DNA of 64,000 nt from assembly GCF_025699485.1 (NCBI RefSeq), contig NZ_JANUXN010000014.1, positions 1-64,000 on the forward strand, read 5' to 3'. The notes below the pieces were generated by a model. The model searched no databases. It saw nothing but the letters and a program-made list of their open reading frames with translations, and was not told where the DNA came from. A program made the translations under genes and the position numbers. Source of the DNA: Thauera carbonicopians (GTDB lineage Bacteria > Pseudomonadota > Gammaproteobacteria > Burkholderiales > Rhodocyclaceae). Shown piece by piece: positions 11,303 to 29,574 of the stretch (position 1 is the stretch's first letter; the number at the start of each line of letters is the position of its first letter).

Positions 11303-11318
11303 GTCACCAGGAATCGAA
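11303..11318. repeat. Distal attachment-site repeat
   Basis: GTCACCAGGAATCGAA, identical to 29507-29522 inside tRNA-Arg. This is the copy of the tRNA 3' end left at the far side of the integrated element. The flanking bases do not form a tRNA, so the intact tRNA is at the integrase end. Confidence 0.88.
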
Positions 11319-11372
11319 GAAGATGGTAGCCGCCTTATCCTGAAAAGGATTTGAAGCGGTACGGCGAATTCC

Positions 11373-11392
11373 TACCCCCAAATCTACCCCCA
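11373..11392. repeat. Paired TACCCCCA repeats, candidate integrase arm sites (left)
   Basis: TACCCCCA occurs twice in direct orientation at 11373-11380 and 11385-11392, starts 12 bases apart, just inside the left attachment repeat. The same octamer recurs in both orientations inside the right end at 29325-29386. Clustering at both termini of an integrase-mobilised element suggests arm-type binding sites for integrase or its directionality factor. This is inferred from position only. Confidence 0.5.
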
Positions 11393-11457
11393 GCGCGTGA
11401 GGGCTGGGCCGGTGATCGGCCAGCGCCGCGTCGAAAATGCTGTCGCGGGCGGCAACT

Positions 11458-11679
11458 TCAATGAGGGCTTTCATCGCTTCCACTCCTGGTTGTTCCGATG
11501 AGCAGATCGCGCGAATCGTTGACCAGGTCCATGGCCTCGCTGAGGCACCCGGACAGGGAATGCTGGCTCAGGCTGTTGATGTCGCCGGTGACTTCAAGCG
11601 TGTAGATCATGTCGATGAGCGCGGCGGCCGATGACAGCTTGAGGTTGATGGCATCCACATCGATGTTGTCCGTGCTCAT
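11458..11679 (-). CDS. Small element protein of unknown function (73 aa)
   Basis: Starts at the ATG at 11679 with a strong AAGGAAGGTGA upstream and overlaps the preceding gene by ATGA, so translation coupling supports it as real. Acidic and mostly helical (INLKLSSAAALIDMIYTLEV), with no membrane segment and no recognised motif. It is the last gene of the minus-strand element transcript before the left end. The function is not recognised. Confidence 0.6.
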   Translation of the reverse strand: MSTDNIDVDAINLKLSSAAALIDMIYTLEVTGDINSLSQHSLSGCLSEAMDLVNDSRDLLIGTTRSGSDESPH

Positions 11680-12041
11680 GACTTCACCTTCCTTAAATGC
11701 TTCGCCTTCTCGTAGGCTTCGATTTCGTTCCAGCCCATCATTTCAAGCCGGCGCGGTTCTGCGCGTCGTGCCAGGCCAATCAAGGTAGCGACCTGATCGG
11801 AGCCGCATTCGAGCGTACGGAGCAACGCCTGCACTTCTTCACCATTTTGGAAGTTGCCGGCATTGCCGTTCTCGCTGTCTTCCGCGACGAGGGCGGCGAG
11901 GCCGCCGCATACAACGGCCAAGTCTTGCGCCAGATGCTGTGCGTTCTCTATCCCGCCGGAAAACATTGACACCTCGTCGAGCGTCAGACGGTCCTCGGCC
12001 TTTTCCCACAACAGAAAAACTGCATCGCGTAGATTTCTCAT
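11676..12041 (-). CDS. Small element protein of unknown function (121 aa)
   Basis: The ATG at 12041 is preferred over the GTG at 12047 because GGAGG sits eight bases upstream of the ATG. The protein is acidic and helical with no membrane segment. It contains SMFSGGIENAQHLAQDLAVV and ends in a basic tail (KHLRKVKS). The preceding small ORF stops at the start region and the next gene overlaps by ATGA, so it belongs to a tight operon. Such small ORFs are typical of phage and satellite late ends, but no family was recognised. Confidence 0.6.
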   Translation of the reverse strand: MRNLRDAVFLLWEKAEDRLTLDEVSMFSGGIENAQHLAQDLAVVCGGLAALVAEDSENGNAGNFQNGEEVQALLRTLECGSDQVATLIGLARRAEPRRLEMMGWNEIEAYEKAKHLRKVKS

Positions 12042-12043
12042 GG

Positions 12044-12136
12044 TCACTTCCTCCCGAAGGTCAGACGATAGGCCAGCGCCGGGCCGGCGAAGCGGCGCAG
12101 CGCGCGGTACAGGGTGAAGCGGCTGATCGTGGTCAT
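12044..12136 (-). CDS. Very small translationally coupled ORF (30 aa)
   Basis: Codes for a basic, arginine-rich 30-residue peptide starting MTTISRFTLYRALRRF. Its ATG overlaps the TGA of the preceding frame and has GGGAGG eight bases upstream. Its own stop abuts the ribosome binding site of the next gene. The signals are as good as those of its neighbours, so it may be a real microprotein or a coupling leader. No homology is recognised. Confidence 0.45.
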   Translation of the reverse strand: MTTISRFTLYRALRRFAGPALAYRLTFGRK

Positions 12137-12451
12137 GCTGCCGTCCTCCCTTCCACCTTCGCCAGGGCGGCGCGAAGCGACATGAGCACGGCGCCTTCTG
12201 GCGTATGTTCGGAAGGCGCCCACTTCTGTCTGGTCAGCAAGGCTTCCGCTGCACTTGCCCAGGTCCGGGGAACGATAGGGGAGCGGGGTTTCCATCGCCG
12301 CCAGCGCGAGCTGGGCGATGGCTGCGATCTCGGAAAGGTTGAATTGTGCCGTGACTGCCATGTTTTTGATGGCAAGCTGCAGGCGGCGAACTTCGGTGGT
12401 GCTGGCTTCGAGGGTGCTGGACGCGGGCGCGCCGGTGGTGGGGTGTGCCAT
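12133..12451 (-). pseudogene. Element protein read in two frames (frameshifted or recoded)
   Basis: The first part, from the ATG at 12451 (TTGGAG eight bases upstream), reads well as MAHPTTGAP through STLEASTTEVRRLQLAIKNM and QFNLSEIAAIAQLALAAMET. Near 12270-12260 the protein-like sequence moves to the +1 frame and continues as SAAEALLTRQKWAPSEHTPE and MSLRAALAKVEGRTAA, ending at 12133 where the TGA overlaps the next ATG. The span is not a multiple of three. The shift lies close to a TCCCCGG run. It may be a mutation, a sequencing error or programmed frameshifting. The function is unknown. Confidence 0.5.
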
Positions 12452-12719
12452 GGTGGTACTCCAAGTAGCGGTCTTTTTCTCCGCCTTCCCGTCGCCAAAC
12501 GGGTGAGCGGAACCGTGTCGGGTTGGCGAACCGGTACTTGGAAACCGGCAGACCTTGCGGTCTCCCAACACGGCCCGCCCATAGGGCAACACCATGTTGC
12601 GGACGTAAAAAAACCGCGCGGGGCGGTTGTCCGCCCAAGTAAGCCCGGTCGCCAAACCGGTGCCCCGTTGTTTGCGGGGACGTGTGCAGAGTAGGCGGGC
12701 GGGGTGGGGGCTGTCAAGC
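12452..12719 (-). other. Structured, possibly untranslated leader upstream of a small element gene
   Basis: About 270 bases without a convincing gene start but rich in short hairpins: AGACC-TTGC-GGTCT (12550-12563) and GCAACA-CCA-TGTTGC (12586-12600). GTCGCCAAAC(G/C)GGTG is directly repeated with one mismatch at 12491 and 12648. The frame continuing upstream from the gene at 12451 stays open and reads with some protein-like character (ARFFYVRNMVLPYGRAVLGD), as in P4-type ash/icd-like leaders. A longer product or a regulatory leader cannot be excluded. Confidence 0.4.
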
Positions 12720-12760
12720 GTATTAACAGATAGCTTGCTCTTCGTGGTTTCTGTTAATAC
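12720..12760. promoter_or_regulatory. Palindromic operator candidate upstream of brnT
   Basis: A perfect 11-bp inverted repeat, GTATTAACAGA (12720-12730) and TCTGTTAATAC (12750-12760), with a 19-base spacer, ending nine bases before the brnT start. The arms are AT-rich in a GC-rich setting. BrnA antitoxins repress their own operon through a ribbon-helix-helix domain, so this is the expected position of the autoregulatory operator. Confidence 0.65.
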
Positions 12761-12769
12761 AATTTACTC

Positions 12770-13048
12770 ATGAAAATCACCTACGACGAAGCCAAGCGGC
12801 AGGCCAACCTCGTGAAGCACGGCCTTGATCTGGCAGATGCTGCGCTGGTCTACGACTCGCCGAACAAGATCACGCTGGCCTCGACGCGTAAGGATGAGCA
12901 GCGCCTTGTCGATATTGCAATGGTCGAGGTGATGGGCGTGGTGCTGGTTCTGGTCTATGTGGTTCGTGGTGACGCGGTGCGTGCCATTTCACTGCGCCGC
13001 GCGTCGAAGTCTGAAAGGAGGGTCTATGAATCCGCACAGCAAAACTGA
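12770..13048 (+). CDS. brnT: BrnT-family ribonuclease toxin
   Basis: 92-aa protein of the BrnT/DUF497 family, a small RelE-like RNase that arrests translation when not bound by BrnA. Diagnostic segments are YDEAKRQANLVKHGLDLADA near the N-terminus, a central LVYVVRGDAVRAISLRRA strand region and the C-terminal SERRVYE. It is on the plus strand, opposite to nearly all other element genes, and overlaps brnA by 23 bases. It probably stabilises the element in the chromosome. Confidence 0.88.
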   Translation: MKITYDEAKRQANLVKHGLDLADAALVYDSPNKITLASTRKDEQRLVDIAMVEVMGVVLVLVYVVRGDAVRAISLRRASKSERRVYESAQQN

Positions 13049-13328
13049 CTGGGCTCGTGTGAAGCGTGAGGCCGAAGCCGATGCGCCGGTGCCGTTCGAT
13101 GCCGACGGCGATCCGTACGATCCGAACGATGAAGCCGCTGTCGAGGCCTTTGCCGCGCAGGCCCTGATTACCCGTAGGCGCGGCCCGCAGAAAGCCCCCA
13201 CTAAAGTGCCGACCACCATCCGCTTCGACGCGGATGTGCTGGCCGCGCTGAAGGCTACCGGGCCGGGCTGGCAGACACGGGTGAATGCGGCGATGCGCGA
13301 ATGGGTGAGGTCGCATGTCGCGCGTTGA
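13026..13328 (+). CDS. brnA: BrnA-family antitoxin
   Basis: 100-aa antitoxin starting at the ATG at 13026, with AAGGAGGG upstream inside the end of brnT. The N-terminal half is acidic (toxin contact). The C-terminal half contains the family motif KVPTTIRFDADVLAALKATG followed by GWQTRVNAAMREWV, a ribbon-helix-helix DNA-binding fold. It should neutralise BrnT and repress the operon at the inverted repeat at 12720-12760. Confidence 0.87.
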   Translation: MNPHSKTDWARVKREAEADAPVPFDADGDPYDPNDEAAVEAFAAQALITRRRGPQKAPTKVPTTIRFDADVLAALKATGPGWQTRVNAAMREWVRSHVAR

Positions 13329-13345
13329 TGTCGGATTTTCCGACA

Positions 13346-13909
13346 TCAAGATTCATAGCGTGCGCCTGATGGTGTTGCGCCGAACACATTGCCAGAGAGC
13401 TGGCCGAGCAGGTCGCGCAACGGATCGGTCTTCTGGCTGTTGTCTTTCTCGTACAGACCCAGGTGCTTCATCAGCTTTTCCAAAGCGCTGTTCTTGTCCG
13501 CAATCTTGTACTTCTTCAGGTAGCCGACGAATACGCGGTCTTTGCCCGATCCCTCGAACTGCTCCAGCACCTCGATGCCGGCCACGGCTGCGGCGGTGTC
13601 GTCGTCGAGATCATGGATTCCCTTCGGGCTGCCGTCTGCATTGAAGAGCCGGCGTGGGTCGAAGAAGGCGACTCGCGCCAGTTCTCGCAAGGTGTCGTCC
13701 TGGCTGATGCCGGTACGCTTCTGGCGCGCCTTGCGCCCTTCTTCAATGGCTCCGCACACCTCAACATTCCTCAACAGGCGTTCGCCCTGCTGGGTGGCCG
13801 TTCGTGGGCTGTACCCCGCTCGGATCGCCGCCTGTGTCGCATTCAGGTCGATCAGGTACTCATCAACGAAGCGAGCCTGCCTTGGTGTCATTCGGTCACG
13901 TTTCGTCAT
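13346..13909 (-). CDS. Phage terminase small subunit
   Basis: 187 aa, Terminase_2-type small subunit. The N-terminal helix-turn-helix contains MTPRQARFVDEYLIDLNATQ followed by AAIRAGYSPRTATQQGERLL, the classic DNA-recognition start of this family. The C-terminal part includes KNSALEKLMKHLGLYEKDN. It should recognise the packaging site and direct a large terminase, but no large subunit gene exists in the window. A lone terS is a hallmark of satellites that redirect helper packaging, and also a common leftover in decayed prophages. It overlaps the upstream gene by 14 bases. Confidence 0.88.
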   Translation of the reverse strand: MTKRDRMTPRQARFVDEYLIDLNATQAAIRAGYSPRTATQQGERLLRNVEVCGAIEEGRKARQKRTGISQDDTLRELARVAFFDPRRLFNADGSPKGIHDLDDDTAAAVAGIEVLEQFEGSGKDRVFVGYLKKYKIADKNSALEKLMKHLGLYEKDNSQKTDPLRDLLGQLSGNVFGATPSGARYES

Positions 13910-14132
13910 GGCGGCGTTCCTGTGCTGAGATGTGGCGCGTCTCCACGACGGCGGGAAGCTTCGCCGGCACGATGATGCGGCGCATACCTTCGAGTCGGCC
14001 GGTATAGGGGAGGCCGTTCCGGGTCATCTTGATCGCCGCGCCGGTCTGGTCTGTGATGACGACGATCGTACCGTCGTTTTCTGGCGGGGTGGCCTGCTCA
14101 AGCTTTGCAAGGCGGGTTTTCAGGTTGGTCAT
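13896..14132 (-). CDS. Small element protein of unknown function (78 aa)
   Basis: Starts at the ATG at 14132, overlapping the TGA of the DUF5681 remnant (ATGA). Begins TNLKTRLAKLEQATPPEND, a short coiled-coil-like helix, then TIVVITDQTGAAIKMTRNGL, a probable beta hairpin. Similar small proteins lie between DUF5681 and terminase genes in phages, but no function is known. It overlaps terS by 14 bases, which supports a packaging-related operon. Confidence 0.6.
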   Translation of the reverse strand: MTNLKTRLAKLEQATPPENDGTIVVITDQTGAAIKMTRNGLPYTGRLEGMRRIIVPAKLPAVVETRHISAQERRHDET

Positions 14133-14357
14133 TTGCGGTTCTCCAGGGCGGTGATACGGGATTCGAGTTCTACGGTCTCCAAGGCCTTGCGACGGCTCTC
14201 CACAATGCCGGAGAGCGTCGCGGCCTCGCTTGGGGTGAGGGAGCCTTCGGCGACGGCTTGCAAGATGATTTGCTGTGCTTCGGACACGCCGGCCGCGGTG
14301 CTTGGTTCCACGCGGCTTGCCTCTCGGGTTGCCGGACTGGCCAGGCTTAAACGCCAT
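14129..14357 (-). pseudogene. Internally deleted DUF5681 gene
   Basis: From the ATG at 14357 the frame gives AFKPGQSGNPRGKPRGTKHR, the signature N-terminus of DUF5681 phage proteins that usually sit next to terminase genes. After about 20 residues the frame loses similarity. A second frame then gives EAQQIILQAVAEGSLTPSEA and a C-terminus ending ESRITALENRK, typical of the DUF5681 C-terminal end. The middle, usually 60 or more residues, is missing. This looks like an in-place deletion with a frame change. A GTG at 14311 could still start the C-terminal piece (60 aa). Confidence 0.65.
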
Positions 14358-14380
14358 TGGCTTGTTCTCCCCTTGAATTT

Positions 14381-14710
14381 TCAGGCTGTCCGCGATCCTT
14401 CACCCCCCAGCCCGAACGTCTGGAAAAGGGCATCGAAGGCCTCGGCCCGTGCCTGCGGTTTCAGTCGGTACAGGTTCGCCGTGTAGCGCTCTCCGGTACG
14501 GGCGGTGCGACGGATCACGGCCGAGCCTTCGATAGCCTCGATGATCCGTTGGCGCCGGAGCCACGAGCACGCAACCCGCACCCGGTACTCGTCGCAACCC
14601 ATGACGCGGGCGATGTCGGACGTGGAGAACACTGTGCGGCCATCGGTGTCGATTTCACCGCGGTAGTCGGTGATGGCCGTGAGCACTGCTTCGGTGGTGA
14701 TTTTCGTCAT
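14381..14710 (-). CDS. Winged-helix-like element protein (109 aa)
   Basis: Starts at the ATG at 14710. The segments FSTSDIARVMGCDEYRVRVA and WLRRQRIIEAIEGSAVIRRT have the look of a winged helix-turn-helix with a beta wing. No enzymatic motif. It lies between the 2018-aa protein and the DUF5681 remnant on the same strand. It may regulate late element genes or help in packaging-site recognition. The assignment rests on fold appearance only. Confidence 0.55.
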   Translation of the reverse strand: MTKITTEAVLTAITDYRGEIDTDGRTVFSTSDIARVMGCDEYRVRVACSWLRRQRIIEAIEGSAVIRRTARTGERYTANLYRLKPQARAEAFDALFQTFGLGGEGSRTA

Positions 14711-14790
14711 GCTTCAATACTCCCTGTCCATTCTCGGAAAGGGTCTGGCTGCACTCCTGCGCGGCTGCCCCGTCATGCATTCATCTGTGG

Positions 14791-17700
14791 TTATTCGAGG
14801 TTCGCGAACGCCCCTTCCTCGCGCAGCCCTTCGCGCTTGGGTGACAGGAAGATGCCGTCCCTGATCTGCGCGGCGTTGCGCAGCTTGGTCCGGTAGGCCT
14901 GCTGGAAGGACAGGGCGTTGAAGGCGAAGGCGGGGTTCTGGCGGCTGAAGCGCTGGGCCAGGGTGATGGCCTCTTGCTGCGTCTCCCGGTCGCCCGCCAT
15001 CGTGGCGGCCACCCACATGTTCAGGATCTCCGAGCGCCGGGCCTGCAGCCTGGCCTCCCGCCCCTTCACCGCGGCACGGCCCTCGTACATCTCGGCCATC
15101 CGTGACGGCTGGAAGCCCATGGCCGTACCCACGATCTCCGCCGGCGTCAGATCGATGCCCAGATCGTCGCCGCGCCACGAGCGCACGCCTTCATCGCTGA
15201 AGCGGTAGGCCTTGAGCGGAGCGCTGATGAACTTCGGCATCATCGACTCCACACCCCGGGCGAACTTGCCTTCCTCGAAGGCCTGCATCGCCGTGCCCAT
15301 CTGCCCGGCGTAGCCTGCCACCGGCCCGAGCAGCGTCAGCATCCAGGCCTCGACCAGATCGCGGCCCTCGGCTTCCTTGTTCGGCGCCCGCAGCCACAGA
15401 TCGCCCAGCCCCACGCGAGAGGCCATATCGACGTTGAGCAGCATGCGCATCGGGCCGTGGGCGATGGCTTCTCCCACCTTCACGCCAAACACGTCGGCCA
15501 GCATCTTCCGGTACTCGGTCTCCCACTCCCACGGATCGTCCTCGTCGCCCATGCCCAGCGCCAGCAGGGACAGCAGCGGCGTGATGCCGAAGATGCCCAG
15601 CGGCAGCCCCAACGTGCCGGCCGCGGTGAAGTGCATCGCCGCCACCCCGAGCAGCATGCGCCGGGCCTCGCGCTTCACCTGCGGGCTCTCGCCCTTGAGC
15701 GCCTGGTAGGCGTTGCGCCACAGCAGGTAGGTCATCTGCTGGCTGTACTGCTTGAACATCGTGATGACGCGGGTGAAGTTGCCCTGCATGAAGCGGGCGC
15801 GGTTCGATGCCGAGTAATCGAAGTGCGTGCGGATCAGGGCATTGCGCGCTGCCTCGACTGCATCGGCATGGGCCTGCCCCTTGTCGCGGGCCAGCCGATA
15901 GGTCGCCAGGGCCGATACCTGCCGGTTGAAGACCTCGGGAACATGGAAGGTCCAGCCGACGATCTTCATCGCCCGGTTGATCGCGAAGGCGCGCTTGCTC
16001 ACCGTGCTGTCGGTGTTGGCGGTACCGGCCAAGTCCTGCGCCTGCGTCAGGTTGATGAGCCCCATGTTCTCCAGCTCGCGGATCGCCTTCTGCTCGTCGG
16101 CCGAGAGATTCGGGTTGCCTTGCATGACGAAGCCGGACCACTTCTCCCACCTGCCGCCGAAGTAGTCCTTGCTCGCCTTCGTCATCGCCGCGCTGGCCTT
16201 GCCGAAGCCGTAGCGGGCACCCAGCCAGGGCAGGGTCACGAACGGCGTCTGCGTCAGATTCACCAAGCCGCTGGCGATCGAGCCGCCCAGCGACATCACG
16301 AAGCCCACCTGGCCGGCCGCGGCGGCGACCGGATGCGTGTTCGGGTTCAGCAGCAGATCGAGCCGGCGCGTCAGTTCATTGACCACCTGCTGCTGTTCGG
16401 TCGTGTCGCCGCCCGCTTCGCGGATATCCTTCTGCATCTCGTCGATCAGCAGCGAGAGCTCGTGTGCGTGCTGGATCTTGGCGATGTGGTGGCCGGCGTG
16501 CTGCATGCTGGCCGCGAAGGCGCGCATCGCATCCGAACTGAAGCCCGGTACGCCCTTGCGGTGGCGGAAGTGCCGGCGGTAGCTCGAATCCGGCAGCGTG
16601 CCGATGGCCAACTGGTTCAGGTTGTCCATCAGGTTGGCTTTCTCGGCCGCAGGCAGGTCCAGGGCGTTGATCCGCTCCAGCACGTCGCCGACGAACTGTC
16701 CGGCCGCACCGTCGCGCGTGGCGGAGTACTGCGCCTTGTGGGTGGCCTTCACCGTCCAGCCGGTGGCGCGCAGCTGGCGCATGCGCATCTCGCGCCTGGC
16801 GCTGGATTCGAAGGTCTCGACCATGCGCTCCTTGCCCTTGTCGGCGATCAGCACCAGGTCGCCGAAGCGGGCCAGCGGGAAGTACGGCCCGTCCTTCAGG
16901 TAGTTGTCGAACTCGAGGCGAATCTGCGCCGCCACCCGGGCGCCGTTCGTGCCGGCCATCTCGGCCCGGTTCGCCAGGCCGTCGCGGATCGAGCTCAGCG
17001 TGTCGCGGTAGGTGTCGCGCACCTCGCGATAGATGTCCTTCGCGGTGTTGGGCAGGCTGTCCCACAGCCGCATCATCTCGGCCTGCTCGGCATTGAACTC
17101 GCCGCCCTGCCGCTGGGCATCCGGATCGAACTGCGCCAGGGTAGCGCGGTGCATCAGGTCGGACATGCGGTCGGAGACTTCCGAGGGCAACTGCCGCCAC
17201 TGCTCGATCAGGTTGTCCGCGCGTTCGGCGGTGCGCTGGCGCACGGTGTCCATCTGCCGCACGACGTCGTCGAAGCGCTTCACGCCCGGCATCGCATCAC
17301 CCCAGATGTCGGTGATCTGGTCGCGGGTCAGCGCCCCCATCGCCCAGCCGCGGTTCGAGCGCAGGGCATGGGCAAGCCATTCGCCCACGGTGAGCCGTTG
17401 CGGAGGCGGCGCGCTGTCGGTGGCGGTGTAGGGCGATGCCTCTTCGCGCATGGCGATGGAGCGCAGGCCGCTGTCCATGAAGTCGCGCGCGGCCTCGACG
17501 CCGGATTCCGACAGCGCCAGCCCGTCGGCCTGCACCACGTCCTTGAAGATGCCCTCGCGCATCAGGAAGTCGAAATGCGCCGCATGGCCGTTCTCGGGCA
17601 GCACCAGGAAGCGGCTGCCGCCGCTGCCGGTTTCTCGTGCGGCCCGGCGGACCACCGCCTTCAGGCGTGCGATCCCGACCTTGCTGCGATCCTTCAGCAG

Positions 17701-22364: not shown

Positions 22365-22383
22365 GTAATTCTCCTTGTCGTGG

Positions 22384-22839
22384 TCAGGCGTGGGATTTGT
22401 TCAGCTCTGCACGCGCGGCCAGGATTTCCCGGCGCAGACTGCAGTCATGGGCGGGCGGCTCTTGGGCAGCGATCTTGCGCAAGTCCGCGATGCGAGCGGC
22501 TTCCTGATCGGCAGCTTGCGTGTGCAGAACGCTCGGCTTTGGAGCCGGCGCCTGTTCCAGCTCTGCCGGCTTCAGCTCGATGACTCGGCGCCCAGCGATC
22601 CATTCGATGCGCTTCTCAAGCAGATCAAGCGAGCGGGCATAGACGCGCACCTTCCCATGGCCTTCCAGCGTGGCCGTGAGGCGATGCGTGCCGTCGAGTT
22701 TCTGATCCGAGATGAAGTTGATGTGGCAGTCCTGGGCACTGCTCCATAGGTCGGGGCGCAGCTCGAGGGCGATGCGCCAGTCCATGATCGCGATGCCAGA
22801 AGCGGCAATGCTTTGTGCGGCGTAGGTCTGGGATTTCAT
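22384..22839 (-). CDS. Element protein of unknown function (151 aa)
   Basis: Starts at the ATG at 22839 overlapping the previous stop (ATGA). The N-terminal 80 residues look like a small alpha/beta domain (DWRIALELRPDLWSSAQDCH, DGTHRLTATLEGHGKVRVYA). The remainder is a charged helical tail containing ADQEAARIADLRKIAAQEPP. No catalytic motif is visible. It sits between the replication genes and the putative virion proteins. The function is not recognised. Confidence 0.6.
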   Translation of the reverse strand: MKSQTYAAQSIAASGIAIMDWRIALELRPDLWSSAQDCHINFISDQKLDGTHRLTATLEGHGKVRVYARSLDLLEKRIEWIAGRRVIELKPAELEQAPAPKPSVLHTQAADQEAARIADLRKIAAQEPPAHDCSLRREILAARAELNKSHA

Positions 22840-23438
22840 GCACGCGGCTCCTGTTTGGCATGCAGGCTGGCGACGAATCGAGTTGCATCCGAGTACTCGA
22901 AGAGTCGGGCAATGATTTCGGCGATGAGCCGGGCGGCGAACAGGCGAACCTCGCCGGTGAGCAGGCCGCTCTTGTCGAGGCGTATCAACTGAGCGGGGAA
23001 ATGGCGATCCTCGTAGCGGATGCCCTCGCTTTCTGCGCGGCGGACGAGCTCCATCAGGTGGAGCTCATCGATGCTGGATTCCATGCGTACCTCGCTGCGT
23101 ACCGGGTTGCGTACCTCGTCCGCTGGATCGCCGGCCGGCACCGGGCCGTTCTCCTGCTGGTCGTGTTCGGCGATCAGCAGGGCCAGTTCATCGTCCGGGA
23201 GCAGGGCCATGGCCGCTTCCGCAGTGCGGTACAGCGCGACGGCTTGCGTGCGCAGTGCCTCGACCATTTCCCAGCCGGCAGGGCGTTTGTCGGTGATCGC
23301 CTCCAGGATGCGATCGAGCAGGGCGTTGGTTTCCTCGCTGGGATTGCATTCGGTTGCGACCATCAGGCGGGTGAGCAGGGCGGCTTTGTCGCCGATCCAG
23401 ACCGGGGGCGGAGCTTCGTTGCAGGTGTGGTGAGTCAT
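22836..23438 (-). CDS. Element protein of unknown function (200 aa)
   Basis: The ATG at 23438 is chosen over 23468 because AAGGAA lies seven bases upstream of it. Largely helical and acidic (ALLDRILEAITDKRPAGWEM; ALYRTAEAAMALLPDDELAL), with a C-terminal segment VRLFAARLIAEIIARLFEYS that may pack as amphipathic helices. No catalytic signature. A gap of about 120 bases separates it from dnaB, so a promoter could lie there. No family recognised. Confidence 0.58.
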   Translation of the reverse strand: MTHHTCNEAPPPVWIGDKAALLTRLMVATECNPSEETNALLDRILEAITDKRPAGWEMVEALRTQAVALYRTAEAAMALLPDDELALLIAEHDQQENGPVPAGDPADEVRNPVRSEVRMESSIDELHLMELVRRAESEGIRYEDRHFPAQLIRLDKSGLLTGEVRLFAARLIAEIIARLFEYSDATRFVASLHAKQEPRA

Positions 23439-23561
23439 GGTCAATTCCTTGTGATTCGATGGATTCAAAATCGGGCCTGTAGCGGGTTTTGGGTGGTGCG
23501 GTATGCGTCGATTTCATCGGCACCTACGGCCCGGCAGGCATGTTCCCGGCGACCTTTGCGT

Positions 23562-24953
23562 TCATGCCTCAAACCCTTTATGTCGGGTCGGCTGGTTCTG
23601 GGCGCTTCCGCTCTCGCGCGGCGACACACCGTCGTAGTCGGTGAAGCGCATCAGCGCGCCGTCGATCTCGAGCAGACAGTCACCGGTCGGGCCGTTGCGG
23701 TTCTTGCGCAGCAGCAGCTCGACCTTGCCTCGCCATTCGGGGGCGTCGCGGTACTGGCTTTCGCGGTGGAGCATCAGCACGATGTCTGCGTCCTGCTCGA
23801 TCTCGCCCGAGTCCCGGAGGTCGGCCAGGGTCGGACGCTTGTCCGGGCGGTTCTCGCTGGCGCGGTTGATCTGGGCCAGGGCGATCACCGGCACGCGCAG
23901 TTCCTTCGCCAGCGCCTTCAGGCCGCGCGAGATGCTGCCGACCTCCTGGGTGCGGTTGTCGCCGGTGCCGCGCATGAGCTGCAGGTAGTCGATGACGATC
24001 AGCCCCAGCCCTTCGGTGCGCTGGATGCGGCGGGCCTTCGCGCGGATGTAGGGCACGGTCACGGCCGGGCGGTCATCGACGAACATCGGCCAGGCGGCCG
24101 AGGCGGTGATGGCGTCGGACATCTGGTCCCAGTCGTCGTGGTTGCTGGTGCCGGCGCGCATTGCCTGCACGCTCACATGGCTGCGTGCAGCCAGGATGCG
24201 GGCCGCGATCTCGCGGCGGGTCATCTCCAGCGTGCAGAACAGCGTCGGTGTTCCGGCTGCCGCGGCGTGGGCAGCGATGTTGCAGGCGGCGATCGTCTTG
24301 CCGGCGCCGGGGCGCGCCGCCACGATCACGAGTTGCCCGGGCTCGAAGCCGCCGGTCATCTCGTCCAGGCGGCGGAAGCCCGTCGCCAGGCCGGCGATCT
24401 GCCCGCCACGGCCCCGGCGGTCTTCCACGTCCTGCAGCACTTCAAGCATCGCGTGGTGCAGGCGCACCGGATCGCTCTCGCTGCGGTCGATCAGCTTCAG
24501 CATCCGGGCTTCGAGTTCGGCGGCGATCTCGGCCGGGTCGCGGCTGTCGCCGGCTGCACATGCGCTCTGCAGGTCGGTGGCCAGTTGCTGCAGGCCGCGC
24601 AGCGTCGAGCGCTGGCGGATGATCTCGGCGTAGCGCCGCGCGTTCGCTGCCGACAGGCTGGCATTGGCGAGCTCGGCGAGGTAGGTCAGCCCGCCGGTGC
24701 GCTCGGCTTCTCCGGTGGCGGTGAGCGCATCGGCGACGGTCACCACATCGACCGGCTTGCCGGCATCGTGCTGCGCCTTGGCGGCGGCGAAGATCCGGCG
24801 GTGATCGTCGCGGTAGAAGTCGGCCGGCCGGACAGCGCCTTCGATGCGGTCGAGCACCGCGGAGCCGTGCATCAGGATCGCACCGAGCAGGCCTTGTTCG
24901 GCTTCGAGCGAATGCGGGGGCATGGGCGGGGGCGGCATCATCGGGGCGTTCAT
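23562..24953 (-). CDS. Replicative DNA helicase (DnaB-like)
   Basis: 463-aa hexameric helicase of the DnaB family encoded by the element, expected to load at its own origin with the initiator encoded just upstream. N-terminal DnaB domain (PHSLEAEQGLLGAILMHGSA), then the RecA core with Walker A ARPGAGKT, Walker B LIVIDYLQLM, and SRGLKALAKELRVPVIALAQ with the conserved LADLRDSGEIEQDADIVLML segment. Length and motifs are complete. It overlaps the upstream initiator by ATGA. Its presence shows autonomous replication capacity, at least ancestrally. Confidence 0.93.
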   Translation of the reverse strand: MNAPMMPPPPMPPHSLEAEQGLLGAILMHGSAVLDRIEGAVRPADFYRDDHRRIFAAAKAQHDAGKPVDVVTVADALTATGEAERTGGLTYLAELANASLSAANARRYAEIIRQRSTLRGLQQLATDLQSACAAGDSRDPAEIAAELEARMLKLIDRSESDPVRLHHAMLEVLQDVEDRRGRGGQIAGLATGFRRLDEMTGGFEPGQLVIVAARPGAGKTIAACNIAAHAAAAGTPTLFCTLEMTRREIAARILAARSHVSVQAMRAGTSNHDDWDQMSDAITASAAWPMFVDDRPAVTVPYIRAKARRIQRTEGLGLIVIDYLQLMRGTGDNRTQEVGSISRGLKALAKELRVPVIALAQINRASENRPDKRPTLADLRDSGEIEQDADIVLMLHRESQYRDAPEWRGKVELLLRKNRNGPTGDCLLEIDGALMRFTDYDGVSPRESGSAQNQPTRHKGFEA

Positions 24954-25798
24954 GCGGCCTCCCGGTGGGTGCGCCTATTCGCCTCGGCGGCGCGACGGGC
25001 AAGTTCGCCTTCCGTCGTCAGGGTCAGGGTGCCGTCACCGCCAGCGCGCCAGAGCTTGTACCAGTTGTTCCGCACTGCGTTGCGGAAGGTCTGCGGCCAA
25101 TCGGCATACCGCTTCGCATTGCCCCGGTAGCGGTTTGCGAACTCGATCCAGGCAAGGTGCAACCACTCATCGGGAATGCCGGCGCCTTCTGCCCATCCGA
25201 AAATCGGATCGTCTTCAGCGATGAGCTTTTCCCCGGCGGCCTTCTTGCGTTCGGCGAACGTGTCGAAGGTGATGGGCTGCCTCTTCGACTTCGAAGCCGC
25301 AGGCGGGGGAGTGTGTTCACTTACCTTGGTCTGTTCATTGGTATGTTCACTGGTCTGTTCTTTGCGTGTAGCCGAATAGGCTACGGGTGGGGTAGCCGAA
25401 CGGGCTACGGGCAAGCGTGTAGCCGAAGGGGCAACCGTAGCCGAAGGGGCAACCGTAGCCGAAGGGGCAACGGTAGTAGATTCGGAAACAGTAGCCGGTT
25501 CGGCTACCGTTTCATCGCCCAAAAATTCGGGGACGGTGATGGTGTAGCGGGTGGCTTTCGAATGTCCGCCCTTACCCTCTTTCGATATCCATCCGAGCCG
25601 TTCGAGCGCAGAGGTCGCACTGGAAATATTACTGAGATGCATACCGCAGCGCGCCGCGATTTCACCTCGCGACGGCCACACCACGTCCGTGTTCTTTCCC
25701 CTGAACGAGAACAGCACACCAAGCACCCGGGTCTGCTCCAGGGTCAGGCGCTTGTCACGCCACACCTCGATCGGGACGATGCTGAACACGCTGTTCAT
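24950..25798 (-). CDS. Replication initiator, O-protein/helix-turn-helix type
   Basis: 282 aa from the ATG at 25798, which overlaps the previous stop. The open frame extends upstream without support. The N-terminal winged helix (LTLEQTRVLGVLFSFRGKNT, RGEIAARCGMHLSNISSATS) resembles phage O-type and Rep-type initiators. A low-complexity linker with three VAPSAT units and Glu/Thr-rich repeats follows, then a C-terminal domain (WAEGAGIPDEWLHLAWIEFA; WPQTFRNAVRNNWYKLW) typical of initiators that contact the helicase. It is followed directly by dnaB, as lambda O is by P. The linker DNA contains iteron-like repeats at 25327-25472. Confidence 0.78.
   Translation of the reverse strand: MNSVFSIVPIEVWRDKRLTLEQTRVLGVLFSFRGKNTDVVWPSRGEIAARCGMHLSNISSATSALERLGWISKEGKGGHSKATRYTITVPEFLGDETVAEPATVSESTTVAPSATVAPSATVAPSATRLPVARSATPPVAYSATRKEQTSEHTNEQTKVSEHTPPPAASKSKRQPITFDTFAERKKAAGEKLIAEDDPIFGWAEGAGIPDEWLHLAWIEFANRYRGNAKRYADWPQTFRNAVRNNWYKLWRAGGDGTLTLTTEGELARRAAEANRRTHREAA
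25327..25472. repeat. Iteron-like repeat array inside the initiator gene, candidate replication origin
   Basis: Three tandem 18-bp units GTAGCCGAAGGGGCAACC run at 25419-25436, 25437-25454 and 25455-25472 (the last ends in G). Diverged copies of the same core lie just before and after. Next to them, three 12-bp units TGGTNTGTTCNN start at 25327, 25339 and 25351, with relatively AT-rich sequence between. Lambdoid phages carry their origin as 18-19-bp iterons inside the O gene, and this layout is the same. The repeats also encode VAPSAT, so a purely protein-level explanation remains possible. Confidence 0.55.
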
Positions 25799-26130
25799 GA
25801 GCGAGCTCCGAACGGCCGCCCGGACGCACCGCGCCTGTCTTCGGTGGCATCCCGATAGTCGGCCATGATCTGCAGCATGGACTCGTCGTCGAAGTCGTGC
25901 AGAAAGGCCCAGCAACGGCCGTTCCTGCCCCAGACGACGGCTGGCGCTTCGAGCTGGATCGAGAGGTGGTAAGGGCCGCGGATGTGCCAGTAGCTGACAG
26001 GCTCGTGGAATTGCTTCCGCAGTTCCGGCATGGCCGGGTAAGCACCGCCGACACGATCGAAGTCACGGTCTCCGTGGATCTGTACGTTCGAGCGGCGACG
26101 CGGGCCGCTGTAGGGCGTGCGGTTCATCAT
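25795..26130 (-). CDS. Element protein of unknown function (111 aa)
   Basis: Starts at one of two adjacent ATGs (26130 or 26127) that overlap the preceding stop. Contains EPVSYWHIRGPYHLSIQLEA and VVWGRNGRCWAFLHDFDDES, suggesting a compact beta-rich fold with several aromatic residues. No membrane segment. It directly precedes the replication initiator with an ATGA overlap, so a role in replication or its control is plausible but unproven. Confidence 0.58.
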   Translation of the reverse strand: MMNRTPYSGPRRRSNVQIHGDRDFDRVGGAYPAMPELRKQFHEPVSYWHIRGPYHLSIQLEAPAVVWGRNGRCWAFLHDFDDESMLQIMADYRDATEDRRGASGRPFGARS

Positions 26131-26522
26131 GCTGCACACCTCCTGCCCTTCCGGTACAGGGCCGCGGCAGCGCGTGTCGGGCCGTCCTGCAGGTCGAGCA
26201 GGTATTCGGCCACGGTGCGTCCGTTCTCGATCACCTCGCGGCTGATGATTGCCCAGCCGTCATCACGCAGAAAGCGGACGTACGCGGCCAGGCGCCACGA
26301 AGGTTTGAAACCGGACTGCCGAATGGGGCCGGCGACCAGTGCCAGCAGAGCCGATTCCCGAATGCTGTTCGGCTTCGGGAATACCGGGGCGTGGATGGTG
26401 GTGGTGGTGGCTGAGCCTTTGCGTTGAGCACCAGGGGCGGTAGAATCGACGTGCTCGTTCCGCTTTGCTTTGCCGACTTCGCCCGCCTGCCCGCGGGCGT
26501 TGTCTTTTTCGGGGGGCGCCAT
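26127..26522 (-). CDS. Helix-turn-helix-like element protein (131 aa)
   Basis: The ATG at 26522 is chosen because GGGGGT sits upstream and the preceding gene stops two bases before. The N-terminal 50 residues are charged and disordered. The C-terminal half (ALLALVAGPIRQSGFKPSWR, AYVRFLRDDGWAIISREVIE, GRTVAEYLLD) has the outline of a winged helix, as in phage Rha/Roi-adjacent helix-turn-helix proteins. It overlaps the next gene. The likely role is regulatory or replication-related and is inferred from shape only. Confidence 0.55.
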   Translation of the reverse strand: MAPPEKDNARGQAGEVGKAKRNEHVDSTAPGAQRKGSATTTTIHAPVFPKPNSIRESALLALVAGPIRQSGFKPSWRLAAYVRFLRDDGWAIISREVIENGRTVAEYLLDLQDGPTRAAAALYRKGRRCAA

Positions 26523-26524
26523 GC

Positions 26525-26791
26525 TTACACCCCCTTGGCCATCTGCAGCAGCTTGGCCCTGGCGCGGCGCTCGCGGGCCTTGGCGCTCTCCAGCTCGCGA
26601 TATTCCGGCGCCGTGGCAACCATCATTGCCGCCCACTGCGGGGAGTTCTTTTCGAGGTACGTCCCGGGGCTGGCCTGATGGCGGAACTCCCGATAGGCGT
26701 CACGCAATGCCTCTTTGCAGCGCGCAGTGTGTTCAGCCGCTTCGGCGTACTTGATGGCCTGGATAGCCAGGTCTTTGAGGGAATGGCTCAT
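26525..26791 (-). CDS. Small helical element protein (88 aa)
   Basis: Highly charged helical protein starting SHSLKDLAIQAIKYAEAAEH, with PEYRELESAKARERRARAKL near the C-terminus, probably a coiled coil. It is the first gene after alpA, with an 11-base gap between the two. No recognised family. Alanine/arginine content and codon use match the neighbouring element genes. Confidence 0.55.
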   Translation of the reverse strand: MSHSLKDLAIQAIKYAEAAEHTARCKEALRDAYREFRHQASPGTYLEKNSPQWAAMMVATAPEYRELESAKARERRARAKLLQMAKGV

Positions 26792-26801
26792 CGCTTCCCC
26801 C

Positions 26802-27044
26802 TTACGCAGCAGACTGCTGAGCGGTCAGGCTCGCGAGATACTCACGGATCGCGCCGACCTGCCAGCGGGTGGTCTTAGGGCCGACCTTTACGGGGGAGGG
26901 GAGGTCTCCGGCCTTCGCTTTGCGCCAGATGGTATTGCGGCTGCAGCCAAGGACGCCGGCTACTGTCTTGTCATCTACCAGGCCGGATGCTGGCAGGTTG
27001 TCGAAGTGGGAAACAGATGGTTTGAGAGTGGCAGGGGTTTGCAT
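26802..27044 (-). CDS. AlpA-family regulator / excisionase-type helix-turn-helix protein
   Basis: 80-aa DNA-binding protein of the AlpA/MerR-like excisionase group. The core LVDDKTVAGVLGCSRNTIWR forms the helix-turn-helix, followed by KAKAGDLPSPVKVGPKTTRW and a C-terminal recognition helix (VGAIREYLASL). AlpA proteins activate integrase or excision genes in P4-like satellites and Gram-negative phage-inducible islands. It is positioned before the replication cluster and separated from int by one cargo gene, the usual satellite order of int, cargo, alpA and rep. Confidence 0.82.
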   Translation of the reverse strand: MQTPATLKPSVSHFDNLPASGLVDDKTVAGVLGCSRNTIWRKAKAGDLPSPVKVGPKTTRWQVGAIREYLASLTAQQSAA

Positions 27045-27124
27045 TGTTCGCCTCTAGGTAACGCCGCTCGGGGCGGCATGGGGCGAACGATGCAGGCTGA
27101 GCCATATTTATGGACGGGATGTTT

Positions 27125-28063
27125 TTACCGCGTTTCCTTGGTTTTCTTCCCGGTGGATTTTCGGTAGGGACGTACTGAGTCACGGTCCAGCCCTTGGATG
27201 TTGAGGCATACACCGGTAATCGCTGCCACGCTGTCATCCAGCGGACTGCCGTAATGTTCCTTCATGAACTCGCTGAGTCGGCGGGTCAGGTATGGGCGGA
27301 AGTATTGGCCCCCGCGGGCTGGTTGCTTGATTTCGTCATCGATTGTTTTTTCCGCCTGGATGGCTTCTTCAAACAGATCCAGTAATTCGAGCAGAGACGT
27401 ACGCTCTGCCGTCTCTGCCCAGAAGATCAGACGCTCAATCAGGGGGGCGTCACGTCTTGCAGAGCCCCACGAGTCGGCAGCTCTTCTACCTTCGACGAGA
27501 TCGGAAGACAGAGGAAGAGGTGGGTACATGCGTTCTGATATATCGATTTCATCGTCTAGCATTTCTCGGTGAAGAATCGCCTTCTCACCCAATATGTGAG
27601 CTATAAGATTTTGCTGTACAGCCATTGCTCGCGGTGATGTCTTGATCGCGTTGGCAAGTGTTCGAGTAGCTTGAATGACTTTATCTAGCTCTCTTTTTTT
27701 ATTGGCTGGTGACCGAGCTGAGGCGATTTGTTGAGAAAAATCCAGGCAGGCTTTTGCGATCGTGCGCCACAGTAAAATCGGCATGTCCCCGGTACTGGCC
27801 GCGCTGGAGTGGTCGGTGCTGACTCTTCTCCAGATCTCGCGCATGTTTTCATTAGAAAGCAATCTATTCAGTATTGCAGCCAGTTTGATGTATGTTCTTT
27901 CTTCATCCAAATAGCACTGAGGGTGATTGGTGAAGAATTCATTAAGCCACTTTCCCGGACCGGTGGAGTGATATTCAAATTCGCGTCTAGACCGTGTTGC
28001 TTCCTGACGGAGTTTTTCGAATTCGCAGACCAAGGCTGATGGCGCCCATTTGGGGAAATCCAT
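27125..28063 (-). CDS. Unrecognised cargo protein between integrase and AlpA (312 aa)
   Basis: No family recognised. The protein is soluble, highly charged and predicted mainly helical (SALVCEFEKLRQEATRSRRE; LKLL-poor, Glu/Arg-rich), with FWAETAERTSLLELLDLFEE and a basic C-terminus ending STGKKTKETR. No nuclease, ATPase or membrane motif is obvious. Its base composition is clearly more AT-rich than the flanking genes (for example 27520-27720), a sign of separate acquisition. In satellites this slot next to int often holds anti-phage or other accessory genes, so a defence role is a reasonable but untested idea. Confidence 0.7.
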   Translation of the reverse strand: MDFPKWAPSALVCEFEKLRQEATRSRREFEYHSTGPGKWLNEFFTNHPQCYLDEERTYIKLAAILNRLLSNENMREIWRRVSTDHSSAASTGDMPILLWRTIAKACLDFSQQIASARSPANKKRELDKVIQATRTLANAIKTSPRAMAVQQNLIAHILGEKAILHREMLDDEIDISERMYPPLPLSSDLVEGRRAADSWGSARRDAPLIERLIFWAETAERTSLLELLDLFEEAIQAEKTIDDEIKQPARGGQYFRPYLTRRLSEFMKEHYGSPLDDSVAAITGVCLNIQGLDRDSVRPYRKSTGKKTKETR

Positions 28064-28067
28064 AGCG

Positions 28068-29312
28068 TTACCCGTTCACCACGCTGGGAAACTGAATGAT
28101 CCTCGCGCCCTCCTGCAGCGCATCCAGGTAGTCCGCCCACGCCTGCATCATCGCCCTGCGTTCGGCCATGAACTGCGCGTGATGACTGTATGCAGCGAAG
28201 ACTTGCTTGCGCTCGCGGTGGGCGAGTTGCTTGTCGATGACGTCGGGCCGGTAGCCCAGCTCCAGCAGCGCACCGGTGGCGGTGGCGCGGAAGCCGGCGC
28301 CGGTCACTTCCTGCGCCTGGTAGCCCATGGCGCGCAATGCGCTGTTGATGGTGCCGTCGCTGATCGGGCGGCCTTGGCCGTTGCGGTTGGGGAAGAGCAG
28401 GTCGCGGCCGCCGGAGTGGTCGTGCAGCTCGCGCAGGATCTCCACCGCCTGGCGGGACAGCGGCACGATGTGTTCCTCGCGCATCTTCATGCCAGTGAGT
28501 CCGCGGCTGCGGTCGCGTTCGGCCGGCACGGTCCATACGCCGGCCTCGAGGTCGAATTCGGGCCATTGGGCGCAGCGCAGCTCCCCCGGCCGGACGAAGG
28601 TCAGCACCAGCAGGCGGATGGCCAGCTTGATCGGTTGGGAGATGCGCACGGCGTCCAGGCGGATGAAGAACTCGCGCAGATCGGCCGCGCGAAGGGCAGG
28701 GCGCCGCTGCTCCGTGTGCGTCTTGACCGCCTTGTGCAGGCCTTCGGCGGGGTTGCTCTTGGCGAGGCCATTGGCGATGGCGTAGATGTAGATTTCGCCG
28801 ATGCGGGCGCGAACGCGCTTGAGCATGTCGGTGGCGCCCTTGGCTTCGACCTTGCGCAGCAGCTCCAGGATCTCGACCGGCTGCACGGCGGTGATGGGCT
28901 TGTCGCCAATGTGCGGGAAGACGTGCAGTTCGAGCGCCCGAATGGCTGCGTTCGCGGTGCCTTCCGTGCGATCAGTCTTCCAGCCCTTCCACCAGGCCCG
29001 GGCGACCGCCTCGAACGAATTCTCCGCTGCGACCTTGGCGGCGCGCTTCGCTTCCTTCTTGGCCGCGCCAGGATCGACGCCGGCGGCCAGTTGCTCGCGT
29101 GCGGCCGCCAGTGCCTTGCGTGCCGCCGCCAGGCTCACCTCGGGGTACTTGCCCAGCGCAAGCAGCTTCTCCTTTCCCTGGAAGCGGTACTTGAAGCGCC
29201 AGAGCTTCGAGCCGGCGGGCTGCACGAGCAGGAAGAGGCCGCGCTCGTCGGCGAGCTTGTAGGGCTTTTCCTGTGGTTTTGCCTGCTTGATGGCGGTGTC
29301 GGTCAGGGCCAT
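28068..29312 (-). CDS. int: P4-type tyrosine integrase
   Basis: 414 aa from the ATG at 29312 (GAGG upstream). The open frame runs on to 29420 without support. N-terminal DUF4102 domain (ALTDTAIKQAKPQEKPYKLA, then SKLWRFKYRF and LGKYPEVSLAAAR), a core-binding domain, and a catalytic domain with Arg in TFVRPGELR, LAH at KQLAHRERK and the tyrosine in AAYSHH. The usual HGFR box reads AGFR here, so the catalytic His of HxxR is replaced by Ala. It sits against tRNA-Arg and mediates integration at its 3' end. Activity may be reduced. Confidence 0.92.
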   Translation of the reverse strand: MALTDTAIKQAKPQEKPYKLADERGLFLLVQPAGSKLWRFKYRFQGKEKLLALGKYPEVSLAAARKALAAAREQLAAGVDPGAAKKEAKRAAKVAAENSFEAVARAWWKGWKTDRTEGTANAAIRALELHVFPHIGDKPITAVQPVEILELLRKVEAKGATDMLKRVRARIGEIYIYAIANGLAKSNPAEGLHKAVKTHTEQRRPALRAADLREFFIRLDAVRISQPIKLAIRLLVLTFVRPGELRCAQWPEFDLEAGVWTVPAERDRSRGLTGMKMREEHIVPLSRQAVEILRELHDHSGGRDLLFPNRNGQGRPISDGTINSALRAMGYQAQEVTGAGFRATATGALLELGYRPDVIDKQLAHRERKQVFAAYSHHAQFMAERRAMMQAWADYLDALQEGARIIQFPSVVNG

Positions 29313-29324
29313 ACCGGTGCCTCG

Positions 29325-29386
29325 TGGGGGTATTTTTCTGGGGGTACGGGGGTATGTTCTCGATGTACCCCCACAGATACCCCCCA
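29325..29386. repeat. TACCCCCA/TGGGGGTA repeat cluster, candidate integrase arm and operator sites (right)
   Basis: Upstream of int the octamer occurs inverted at 29325-29332 and 29339-29346, with a near copy CGGGGGTA at 29347-29354. It occurs direct at 29366-29373, and with an extra C at 29378-29386. Together with the two copies near the left end this makes about seven sites at the two element termini. The position over the int promoter suggests integrase arm binding with autoregulation. Confidence 0.5.
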
Positions 29387-29431
29387 AAATCGGGTATTGG
29401 TATGGTGCCGTATGGTGCAAACGGGTGCAAC

Positions 29432-29467
29432 AAAAAACCCGCGAGGCCAGTGGCTACGCGGGTTTCT
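29432..29467. terminator. Hairpin terminator downstream of tRNA-Arg
   Basis: AAAAAACCCGC (29432-29442) pairs with GCGGGTTTCT (29458-29467) around a 15-base loop. On the minus strand it ends transcription from tRNA-Arg. It lies 75 bases from the attachment core, exactly like the hairpin at 11228. The loops differ, so the element appears to bring its own replacement terminator. Confidence 0.7.
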
Positions 29468-29499
29468 GGTGCTTCCGGGTGCTGCTTGGTGCTTTGAAG

Positions 29500-29574
29500 T
29501 GGTCCCGTCACCAGGAATCGAACCTGGATCTGGCGCTTAGGAGGCGCCCGTTCTATCCATTGAACTATGACGAG
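29500..29574 (-). tRNA. tRNA-Arg(CCU)
   Basis: Reads 5' to 3' on the minus strand. The acceptor CTCGTCA pairs with TGACGGG (one T-G wobble), the D arm is GTTC...GAAC, and the anticodon stem GGCGC/GCGCC has loop CTCCTAA, giving anticodon CCU. The T arm is CCAGG-TTCGATT-CCTGG, the discriminator is A and CCA is encoded. All stems are intact, so the gene remains functional after integration of the element at its 3' half. Confidence 0.95.
29507..29522. repeat. Attachment-site core within tRNA-Arg
   Basis: GTCACCAGGAATCGAA, identical to 11303-11318, covering the T arm and part of the 3' acceptor strand of tRNA-Arg. This marks the integrase-proximal boundary of the element. Confidence 0.88.

Follow-up and report, generated by a model that had tools for sequence, protein, structure and literature searches.

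The stretch of DNA examined here (the window) comprises 64,000 nucleotides of contig NZ_JANUXN010000014.1 of Thauera carbonicopians. Within it lies an integrated element of 18.2 kb, named element A (window 11303-29522), that is inserted in a tRNA-Arg(CCT) gene and is probably a phage satellite of a new type. Read along the minus strand, the element begins with a tyrosine integrase gene (int, 450 amino acids (aa), 28068-29420; Pfam Arm-DNA-bind_3, Phage_int_M and Phage_integrase, PHROG_1), followed by a gene for a 312-aa protein without a family match (27125-28063) and by alpA, coding for an AlpA-like regulator or excisionase of 80 aa (26802-27044; PHROG_66 at 2e-8, Pfam AlpA at 20.7 bits against a cut-off of 21). 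Three small genes (25795-26791; 88, 169 and 114 aa, the 88-aa product with a weak match to PHROG_16904) precede rep, which encodes an O-like replication initiator of 321 aa (24950-25915; PHROG_391 2.5e-19, HTH_36), and dnaB, which encodes a replicative helicase of 463 aa (23562-24953; Pfam DnaB_C 6e-91). Two further small genes code for a 210-aa protein (22836-23468), 42% identical over 50 aa to a 195-aa protein of a related element (element B, described below), and for a 151-aa protein without a family match (22384-22839). They are followed by a 506-aa protein (20844-22364), here called the partner, and a giant polyvalent protein of 2,018 aa (14791-20847), which by Pfam contains a RadC-type JAB domain (aa 888-956) and an LPD39 domain (aa 1159-1298) and which ends in a conserved C-terminal segment of 858 aa. 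Beyond the giant are a 109-aa protein (14381-14710; weak transcriptional-regulator match, PHROG_2030, E 0.003), a DUF5681-type gene (14129-14357) with a small downstream reading frame (together 13896-14357; Pfam DUF5681 only in aa 3-25), the terminase small subunit gene terS (TerS, 187 aa, 13346-13909; Pfam Terminase_2 5e-38, 58% identical to the TerS of a prophage in genome G130) and three small genes (11458-12655; 203, 123 and 73 aa) with relatives in element B (52% over 71 aa, 29% over 90 aa and 39% over 54 aa, respectively). A BrnT/BrnA toxin-antitoxin pair, recognised by family matches and regarded as cargo, is placed on the plus strand between terS and the last three small genes (12770-13328).

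The family search covered 20 proteins of element A against Pfam and PHROGs at E 0.01, and gave no matches to large terminase (TerL), portal, capsid, tail or lysis families. An earlier note on this DNA had described terS, rep, dnaB, alpA and int without a structural set, and this description holds, with AlpA falling just under the Pfam cut-off.

The only tRNA that ARAGORN predicted in the window is tRNA-Arg(CCT) at 29500-29574 on the minus strand. A 16-bp repeat (GTCACCAGGAATCGAA) occurs inside this gene at 29507-29522, as the attachment (att) core of the integration target, and again at 11303-11318, as the distal core at the edge of the displaced tRNA 3' end; the two copies are the two ends of element A. 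By simple arithmetic, about 60 tRNA positions and 2.5 kb would share a 16-mer by chance with a probability of roughly 4e-5. The insertion site was compared with 29 loci of the genus, leaving out element A's own, and a site was called empty when a left-flank match of at least 650 bp, the tRNA and a right-flank match were found in one locus of at most 4.1 kb. An empty tRNA-Arg site was found in 19 of the 29 loci, each with less than 1 kb between the left-flank match and the tRNA. At one of these (L118) the right-flank match is just 30 bp, while the clearest (L119) has flanks that are 93-94% identical on either side. The remaining 10 loci were without a long left-flank match in the piece compared, and were counted neither way. 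Because window 11222-11318 matches the natural tRNA 3' end and the stretch downstream of it in four genus mates (86-90% identity in L104, L111, L114 and L117), it can be read as the displaced chromosomal end. Element A is therefore an att-flanked insertion with its own integrase, as is asked of a satellite, and the tRNA-Arg insertion bounded by a 16-bp repeat, as first proposed, is borne out by the tRNA prediction, the repeat and the empty sites in genus mates.

The C-terminal 858 residues of the giant were searched in 395 genomes of the family, from a collection holding one genome per species, and matches were obtained in 19. In six of these, the genome of element A included, identity was 62-100%, and in the other 13 it was at most 38%; samples of 399 genomes of the order and 369 of the class, partly overlapping the others, yielded no further genome above 38%. 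The six strong matches correspond to six elements in six host species, located at six different RNA genes and carrying different integrases. Besides element A (18.2 kb, tRNA-Arg, att repeat of 16 bp) these are element B of Pseudothauera rhizosphaerae (20.5 kb, adjoining the tmRNA gene, imperfect repeat), element C of Thauera sp. UBA6194 (L062-L063; 23.2 kb, tRNA-Thr, 48 bp), element D of Thauera sp. HK-STAS-PROT-107 (L064-L065; 22.5 kb, tRNA-Met, 48 bp), element E of another genus of the same family (L067-L068; 20.5 kb, tRNA-Ser(GCT), 14 bp) and element F of Thauera phenylacetica B4P (19.8 kb, tRNA-Ser(CGA), 16 bp). The repeat of element B agrees at 17 of 28 bases, which does not exceed the best chance matches in the scan, but a terminator-like stretch follows it; since only this imperfect repeat was found, the right edge of element B is a proposed one.

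None of the six elements contains relatives of TerL, portal or capsid proteins in tblastn searches with protein queries taken from four prophages and from two reference phages. An integrase is present in all six (in D by a partial match alone, 49% over 105 aa), as is an AlpA-like frame, recognised in B by PHROG_66 and in C to F by 33-39% identity over 44-67 aa to that of A. The giants are 1,971-2,815 residues long and take up 29-40% of the length of their elements, and a partner of the phage-like type is found in A, B and E, those of A and B being 55% identical over 336 aa. Pfam analysis of four giants (A, D, E and F) identified LPD39 in all four and RadC in A, D and F; an ADP-ribosyltransferase (ART) domain was found in D, and pyrophosphatase and LPD1 domains in E. 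The replication genes vary, with the O-like protein and DnaB in A, an AAA helicase in B, a VapE-type primase in C, an 80% relative of it in D, D5_N/DUF5906 in E and DUF927 in F. The TerS proteins of A and B belong to two unrelated families, Terminase_2 and PHROG_309. The hallmark of this predicted family is a giant that falls inside the satellite group, encoded on an element of 18-23 kb in which relatives of TerL, portal and capsid proteins are lacking, and by this definition element A is a member. The int-alpA-rep-terS set that the earlier note had put forward as characteristic is present in A, yet the giant and not this set unites the family. A search for similar elements, likewise suggested there, thus found five more of 20-23 kb that share the giant but differ in their integrases and mostly also in their replication genes.

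Between elements C and D, 13 predicted products show 100% identity, the giants 93% and the primases 80%. Recent mobility is indicated, because these products are identical while the hosts are only 84% identical at a 2.6-kb chromosomal locus and the integrases and insertion sites differ. C and D are best described as a common core on which the integration module has been swapped.

A tree of 16 giant C-termini, midpoint-rooted and with one long branch (P925b), places the six satellite giants on one side of a branch with support of 100/100, the neighbouring row being a giant from an IMG/VR contig. Within the satellite group the C-termini of B to F are 62-85% identical to that of A; identity is 35-39% to three prophage giants and 45% to the nearest phage contig. 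Ratios of nonsynonymous to synonymous substitution (dN/dS, NG86) are 0.27 for A/B, 0.18 for C/D and 0.28 for C/F, and the satellite giants are under purifying selection. The IMG/VR contig (39.3 kb) encodes a TerL and a portal protein that share 68% and 58% identity, respectively, with their counterparts in a prophage of element B's host, and its giant lies downstream of both. The contig starts within or at TerL, which leaves TerS outside. A transposase gene is found downstream of its portal gene (L088 6294-7274).

Phage records matching the giant of element A number 74, and the 30 listed match mainly its C-terminal ~860 residues at 25-35% identity, in genomes of 55.6-63.8 kb. When the C-terminus itself was used as query, the strongly matching phage records were 43.6-66.4 kb in size, mostly 55-66 kb (60 of 80 records listed). 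Homologues of the module include the giants of POI1126, PBC5, PEp14, F116 and douglas 12A4, all phages of 57-65 kb, and some phage records with the module carry the labels 'structural protein' or 'putative internal virion polymerase'. The 506-aa partner has no Pfam or PHROG match. In five prophages with structural genes, a protein encoded upstream of the giant shares 45-63% identity with the partner over 90-201 aa; in the prophage of genome G139 this protein directly adjoins the giant. In douglas 12A4 a 566-aa protein directly precedes the giant, as the partner does here. The pairing of a giant polyvalent protein with a virion-type partner, which the earlier note had considered less usual for satellites, agrees with the LPD39 and RadC domains and with the position of the partner's relatives upstream of prophage giants.

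A comparable pair is known from the virion of JC1, a Bcep22-like podovirus of 61 kb, in which a 510-aa protein and the 4,515-aa DarB-like giant that follows it were both detected in purified particles by mass spectrometry, with 9 and 51 unique peptides respectively, as given in the virion data of that report (PMC9144972). BcepIL02, of the same genus as JC1, has the same arrangement of a 510-aa-type protein and giant. In a 2017 survey of polyvalent proteins, the passages on phage types argue that these are packaged and act on entry, and the word satellite is absent from its main text (PMC5512222). The RadC domain sits in a phage-type giant in element A (14791-20847), and the survey's account of domains reported RadC solely in polyvalent proteins of conjugative elements (PMC5512222).

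The TerS of element B shares 50% identity with that of a prophage on contig 22 of its own host genome, G198; PHROGs identify a large terminase, a portal and a head protein in this prophage. The partner gene of B (L011 8790-10910) includes a segment of 33 residues that shares 94% identity with a portion of the TerS assigned in the G139 prophage (89% over 101 bp of DNA). Preceding this partner is a gene that matches, at 72% identity over 143 aa, the one lying upstream of terS in the G139 prophage. In some phages the packaging site sits inside terS, and the terS-like segment in B may be a captured packaging site.

The reading that we favour, and hold to be probable, is that element A is a phage satellite of a six-member family, mobilised by a helper phage, whose own giant is proposed to be packaged and ejected; mobilisation, use of TerS, packaging and injection are what we infer from the sequences. 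A new satellite type had been one of two options in the earlier note, and it gains from the six elements at six RNA genes and from giants that form one group under purifying selection. Because no head, tail, large terminase or lysis genes were recognised, element A would have to use a helper phage. Mobilisation of the family by helpers is likely, and injection of the giant is a reasoned guess. The satellite would keep its own int and alpA for integration, together with its own replication genes. Its helper would most likely be a phage, mostly of 55-66 kb, whose giant has the same C-terminal module; the 18-23 kb of the satellites amounts to 0.28-0.42 of this size. In A and B the satellite TerS would steer the helper's large terminase onto satellite DNA. 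The satellite giant would enter the particle instead of, or alongside, the helper giant and be ejected with the DNA, an entry that we propose because its C-terminal 858 residues constitute the module that phage giants also have. The variable N-terminal and middle domains (RadC/JAB, ADP-ribosyltransferase, pyrophosphatase, LPD) would then act in the first minutes in the new host, for example by shielding or processing the incoming DNA or by blunting host defence. A further proposal, for and against which we see equal chances, is that this family rewrites the injected content of the particle, with an ejection-type giant of its own whose swappable enzyme domains serve as a counter-defence kit, and to which B may add its captured terS DNA as a packaging site.

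Several observations weigh against this interpretation. The giants of the G130 and G198 contig 22 prophages, which are closest in TerS, do not have the shared C-terminal module; because of this, the donor of TerS and the donor of the giant need not be the same phage. The host genome of element A, outside the element, contains no match for the giant C-terminus, the 506-aa protein or TerS, and for this reason no resident helper was identified there. TerS was recognised in none of the proteins of C to F that were scanned, which are part of their proteins. Among the giants, the most distant pair (A/C) has a dN/dS of 0.53, with N-termini that align poorly, and the AlphaFold2 model of the giant C-terminus is mostly helical with a poor mean pLDDT of 53. 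A test for homology between the DarB-like giant of BcepIL02 and the C-terminal module detected none at the sequence level, so the JC1 mass spectrometry backs an ejection role by position and not by descent. The DUF5681-type gene next to terS in element A appears broken, its start and likely continuation being in different frames. Scans of viral contigs gave one relative alone, a phage contig, and no satellite DNA. Finally, the mobility, packaging and transfer of the six elements are deduced from their sequences alone.

The contig scans rely on exact short patterns, which diverged members escape. Initial scans of genome contigs and viral contigs with single proteins gave no relative, and the giants of E and F likewise found none among viral contigs, while a scan with an alignment of giants returned four named hosts and one phage contig.

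An alternative that we judge unlikely also takes element A as a satellite, with the giant as a weapon against the helper: a late-phase competitor for the place of the helper giant that yields badly ejecting helper virions, and that satellite particles do not themselves need. A C-terminal module held in common with phage giants, in a satellite group that is separate and diverged (35-39% and 45%), is what a competing copy would be expected to look like, and interference by phage-inducible chromosomal islands (PICIs) is known from work on these elements (PMC6092414). The enzyme-like domains (RadC, ART and the pyrophosphatase InPase) would have no evident use in such a competitor, however, for which a short C-terminal piece should suffice.

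It is very unlikely that the elements are domesticated, immobile islands kept for the benefit of the host through their toxin-antitoxin, methyltransferase and defence-like genes. Cargo of this kind is indeed present, as BrnT/BrnA in A and as a cytosine methyltransferase and a ParB-like gene (partial PD-Lambda-5_A match) in C, identical in D. However, immobility agrees poorly with 13 identical C and D products in different species at different sites, with the perfect 48-bp att repeats of these two elements, and with the empty tRNA-Arg site in 19 of the 29 loci compared within the genus.

The other option raised in the earlier note, a prophage reduced by loss of its structural genes and now decaying, has the gene families of temperate phages in its favour, as well as the one small gene that appears broken and the existence, in genome G169, of a degraded remnant that retains parts of such genes. 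In the G130 prophage and in POI1126, however, a single strand carries TerS first, then TerL, portal, capsid and further genes, and finally the giant; the G139 prophage is arranged likewise, with a TerS assigned by position and partial similarity. Elements A and B have the partner, the giant and then TerS. Because cutting one stretch from the phage order keeps TerS before the giant, a single deletion cannot yield the order of A and B from the phages examined. The earlier note had asked whether complete phages among close relatives contain the missing structural block at one site; among the relatives at hand (G130, POI1126 and G139) the block cannot be restored in this way. Six alike elements at different sites, with open giants that form one group under purifying selection, are likewise not what decay would leave, and on gene order, grouping and selection we reject a deleted prophage as most improbable. 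An integrative element moved by conjugation, its polyvalent protein passing through the conjugative channel, is scarcely credible, although polyvalent proteins occur in such elements and the domain account of the 2017 survey has RadC only there (PMC5512222), as no relaxase or coupling protein was found among the proteins scanned, A and B have TerS, and the C-terminal module is found in phages.

Returning to the satellite interpretation, the literature searched, mostly outside subscription journals, yielded no described satellite family with this gene set or with a polyvalent virion-type protein. The kinds tabulated in a 2024 review are P4-like satellites, PICIs, capsid-forming PICIs (cfPICIs), PLEs, PICMIs, VEIMEs and tycheposons (PMC11389934). 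Gram-negative PICIs are described in their source as having int, alpA, replication genes and, in some, TerS, at about one third of the helper genome size (PMC6092414). The family described here is alike in its int, AlpA-type regulator, replication genes, TerS in some members, lack of structural genes and size of about one third of the presumed helper, with int-alpA-rep-dnaB in A (AlpA weak) and int-alpA-helicase in B. By analogy, the element is predicted to work like a PICI. Pri-Rep and an AlpA of PICI type are genes exclusive to PICIs; in the present family, primases of VapE type (C), D5_N/DUF5906 (E) and DUF927 (F) were recognised, and none in A, at the level of families and without direct comparison of PICI proteins. 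Unlike a PICI, the family carries a polyvalent protein of 1,971-2,815 residues, a partner in A, B and E, and mosaic replication modules. As in cfPICIs, virion-type phage genes appear to have been taken by a satellite and to have evolved into a group of their own; cfPICIs, as outlined in the review, make their own capsids, whereas no capsid gene was recognised in the six elements, which have ejection-type proteins and, in two, TerS (PMC11389934). PICMIs, according to the relevant part of their description, have no capsid-remodelling genes and have their concatemers packaged (PMC10803314).

The tyrosine integrase, the AlpA-like gene and the lack of structural genes are shared with P4-like satellites, unlike which replication appears to depend on an O-like protein and DnaB in A and on other primases or helicases in the other elements. 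The core genes of P4 are psu, delta, sid and the alpha primase. No Sid-, Psu-type or other P4 core families were present among the family matches of element A, in a comparison that did not use P4 proteins directly. AH14b, a 16.8-kb satellite of the 55-kb Pseudomonas phage AH14a that is packaged in phage capsids, resembles the present elements in its integrase, AlpA-like gene and lack of a structural set, and also has a primase; the genome and virion sections of its report differ in giving it no terminase gene, no giant and identified virion proteins that all come from AH14a, and they note a homologue of a tail assembly protein (PMC4936722). The LPD39 or 'DarB-like' phages (POI1126, PBC5, PEp14, F116 and douglas 12A4) have the homologous C-terminal module, but are 57-65 kb in size, with TerL, portal and capsid genes seen in POI1126 and PBC5, and the satellite giants form a group apart from theirs.

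The satellites known so far take over shells, change their size or divert packaging. If our interpretation is correct, the contest in which satellites engage would extend to the first minutes of infection, and helper particles could take on the cargo of a third party. Further members could be sought with the giants of the satellite group as a sequence handle, and each satellite, carrying one giant in a small genome, would offer a direct route to what polyvalent proteins do.

Some further features were noted during the comparison. The cargo slot of element C (L062 14745-18341) holds a cytosine methyltransferase, an endonuclease-like gene and a ParB-like gene partially matching PD-Lambda-5_A, of which the first and last are identical in D; these are candidate defence genes. 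Element E includes an SRAP gene and codes for a PEP-CTERM protein containing a laminin-B-like domain. A stretch of G169 contig 2 (L013 5000-7500) was discarded as a further element, being a decayed remnant with no giant of the satellite group in the part read; it retains a 506-aa-type segment with 80% identity over 170 aa. Matches in genomes G925 and G951, with giants that are 28-38% identical, were not counted in the family. In contig 13 of the low-GC genome G925 an integrase directly adjoins a 1,962-aa giant that is 28% identical (L077 1902-9089). Relatives of an internal virion protein are found in two stretches of G925, one about 10 kb from this giant, and the giant-bearing stretches of that genome are probably phage.

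In element A, the plus-strand frames 15457-19104 and 22815-25130 were discounted because they lie antisense to the giant and dnaB and are presumably not genes, although a simple gene caller preferred the latter frame over dnaB and rep. Tandem repeats with an 18-bp spacing (GTAGCCGAAGGGGCAACC type) are located inside the rep gene at about 25364-25508. Iterons lie inside the O gene of lambda, an arrangement that the rep repeats resemble, and these repeats are possible origin iterons.

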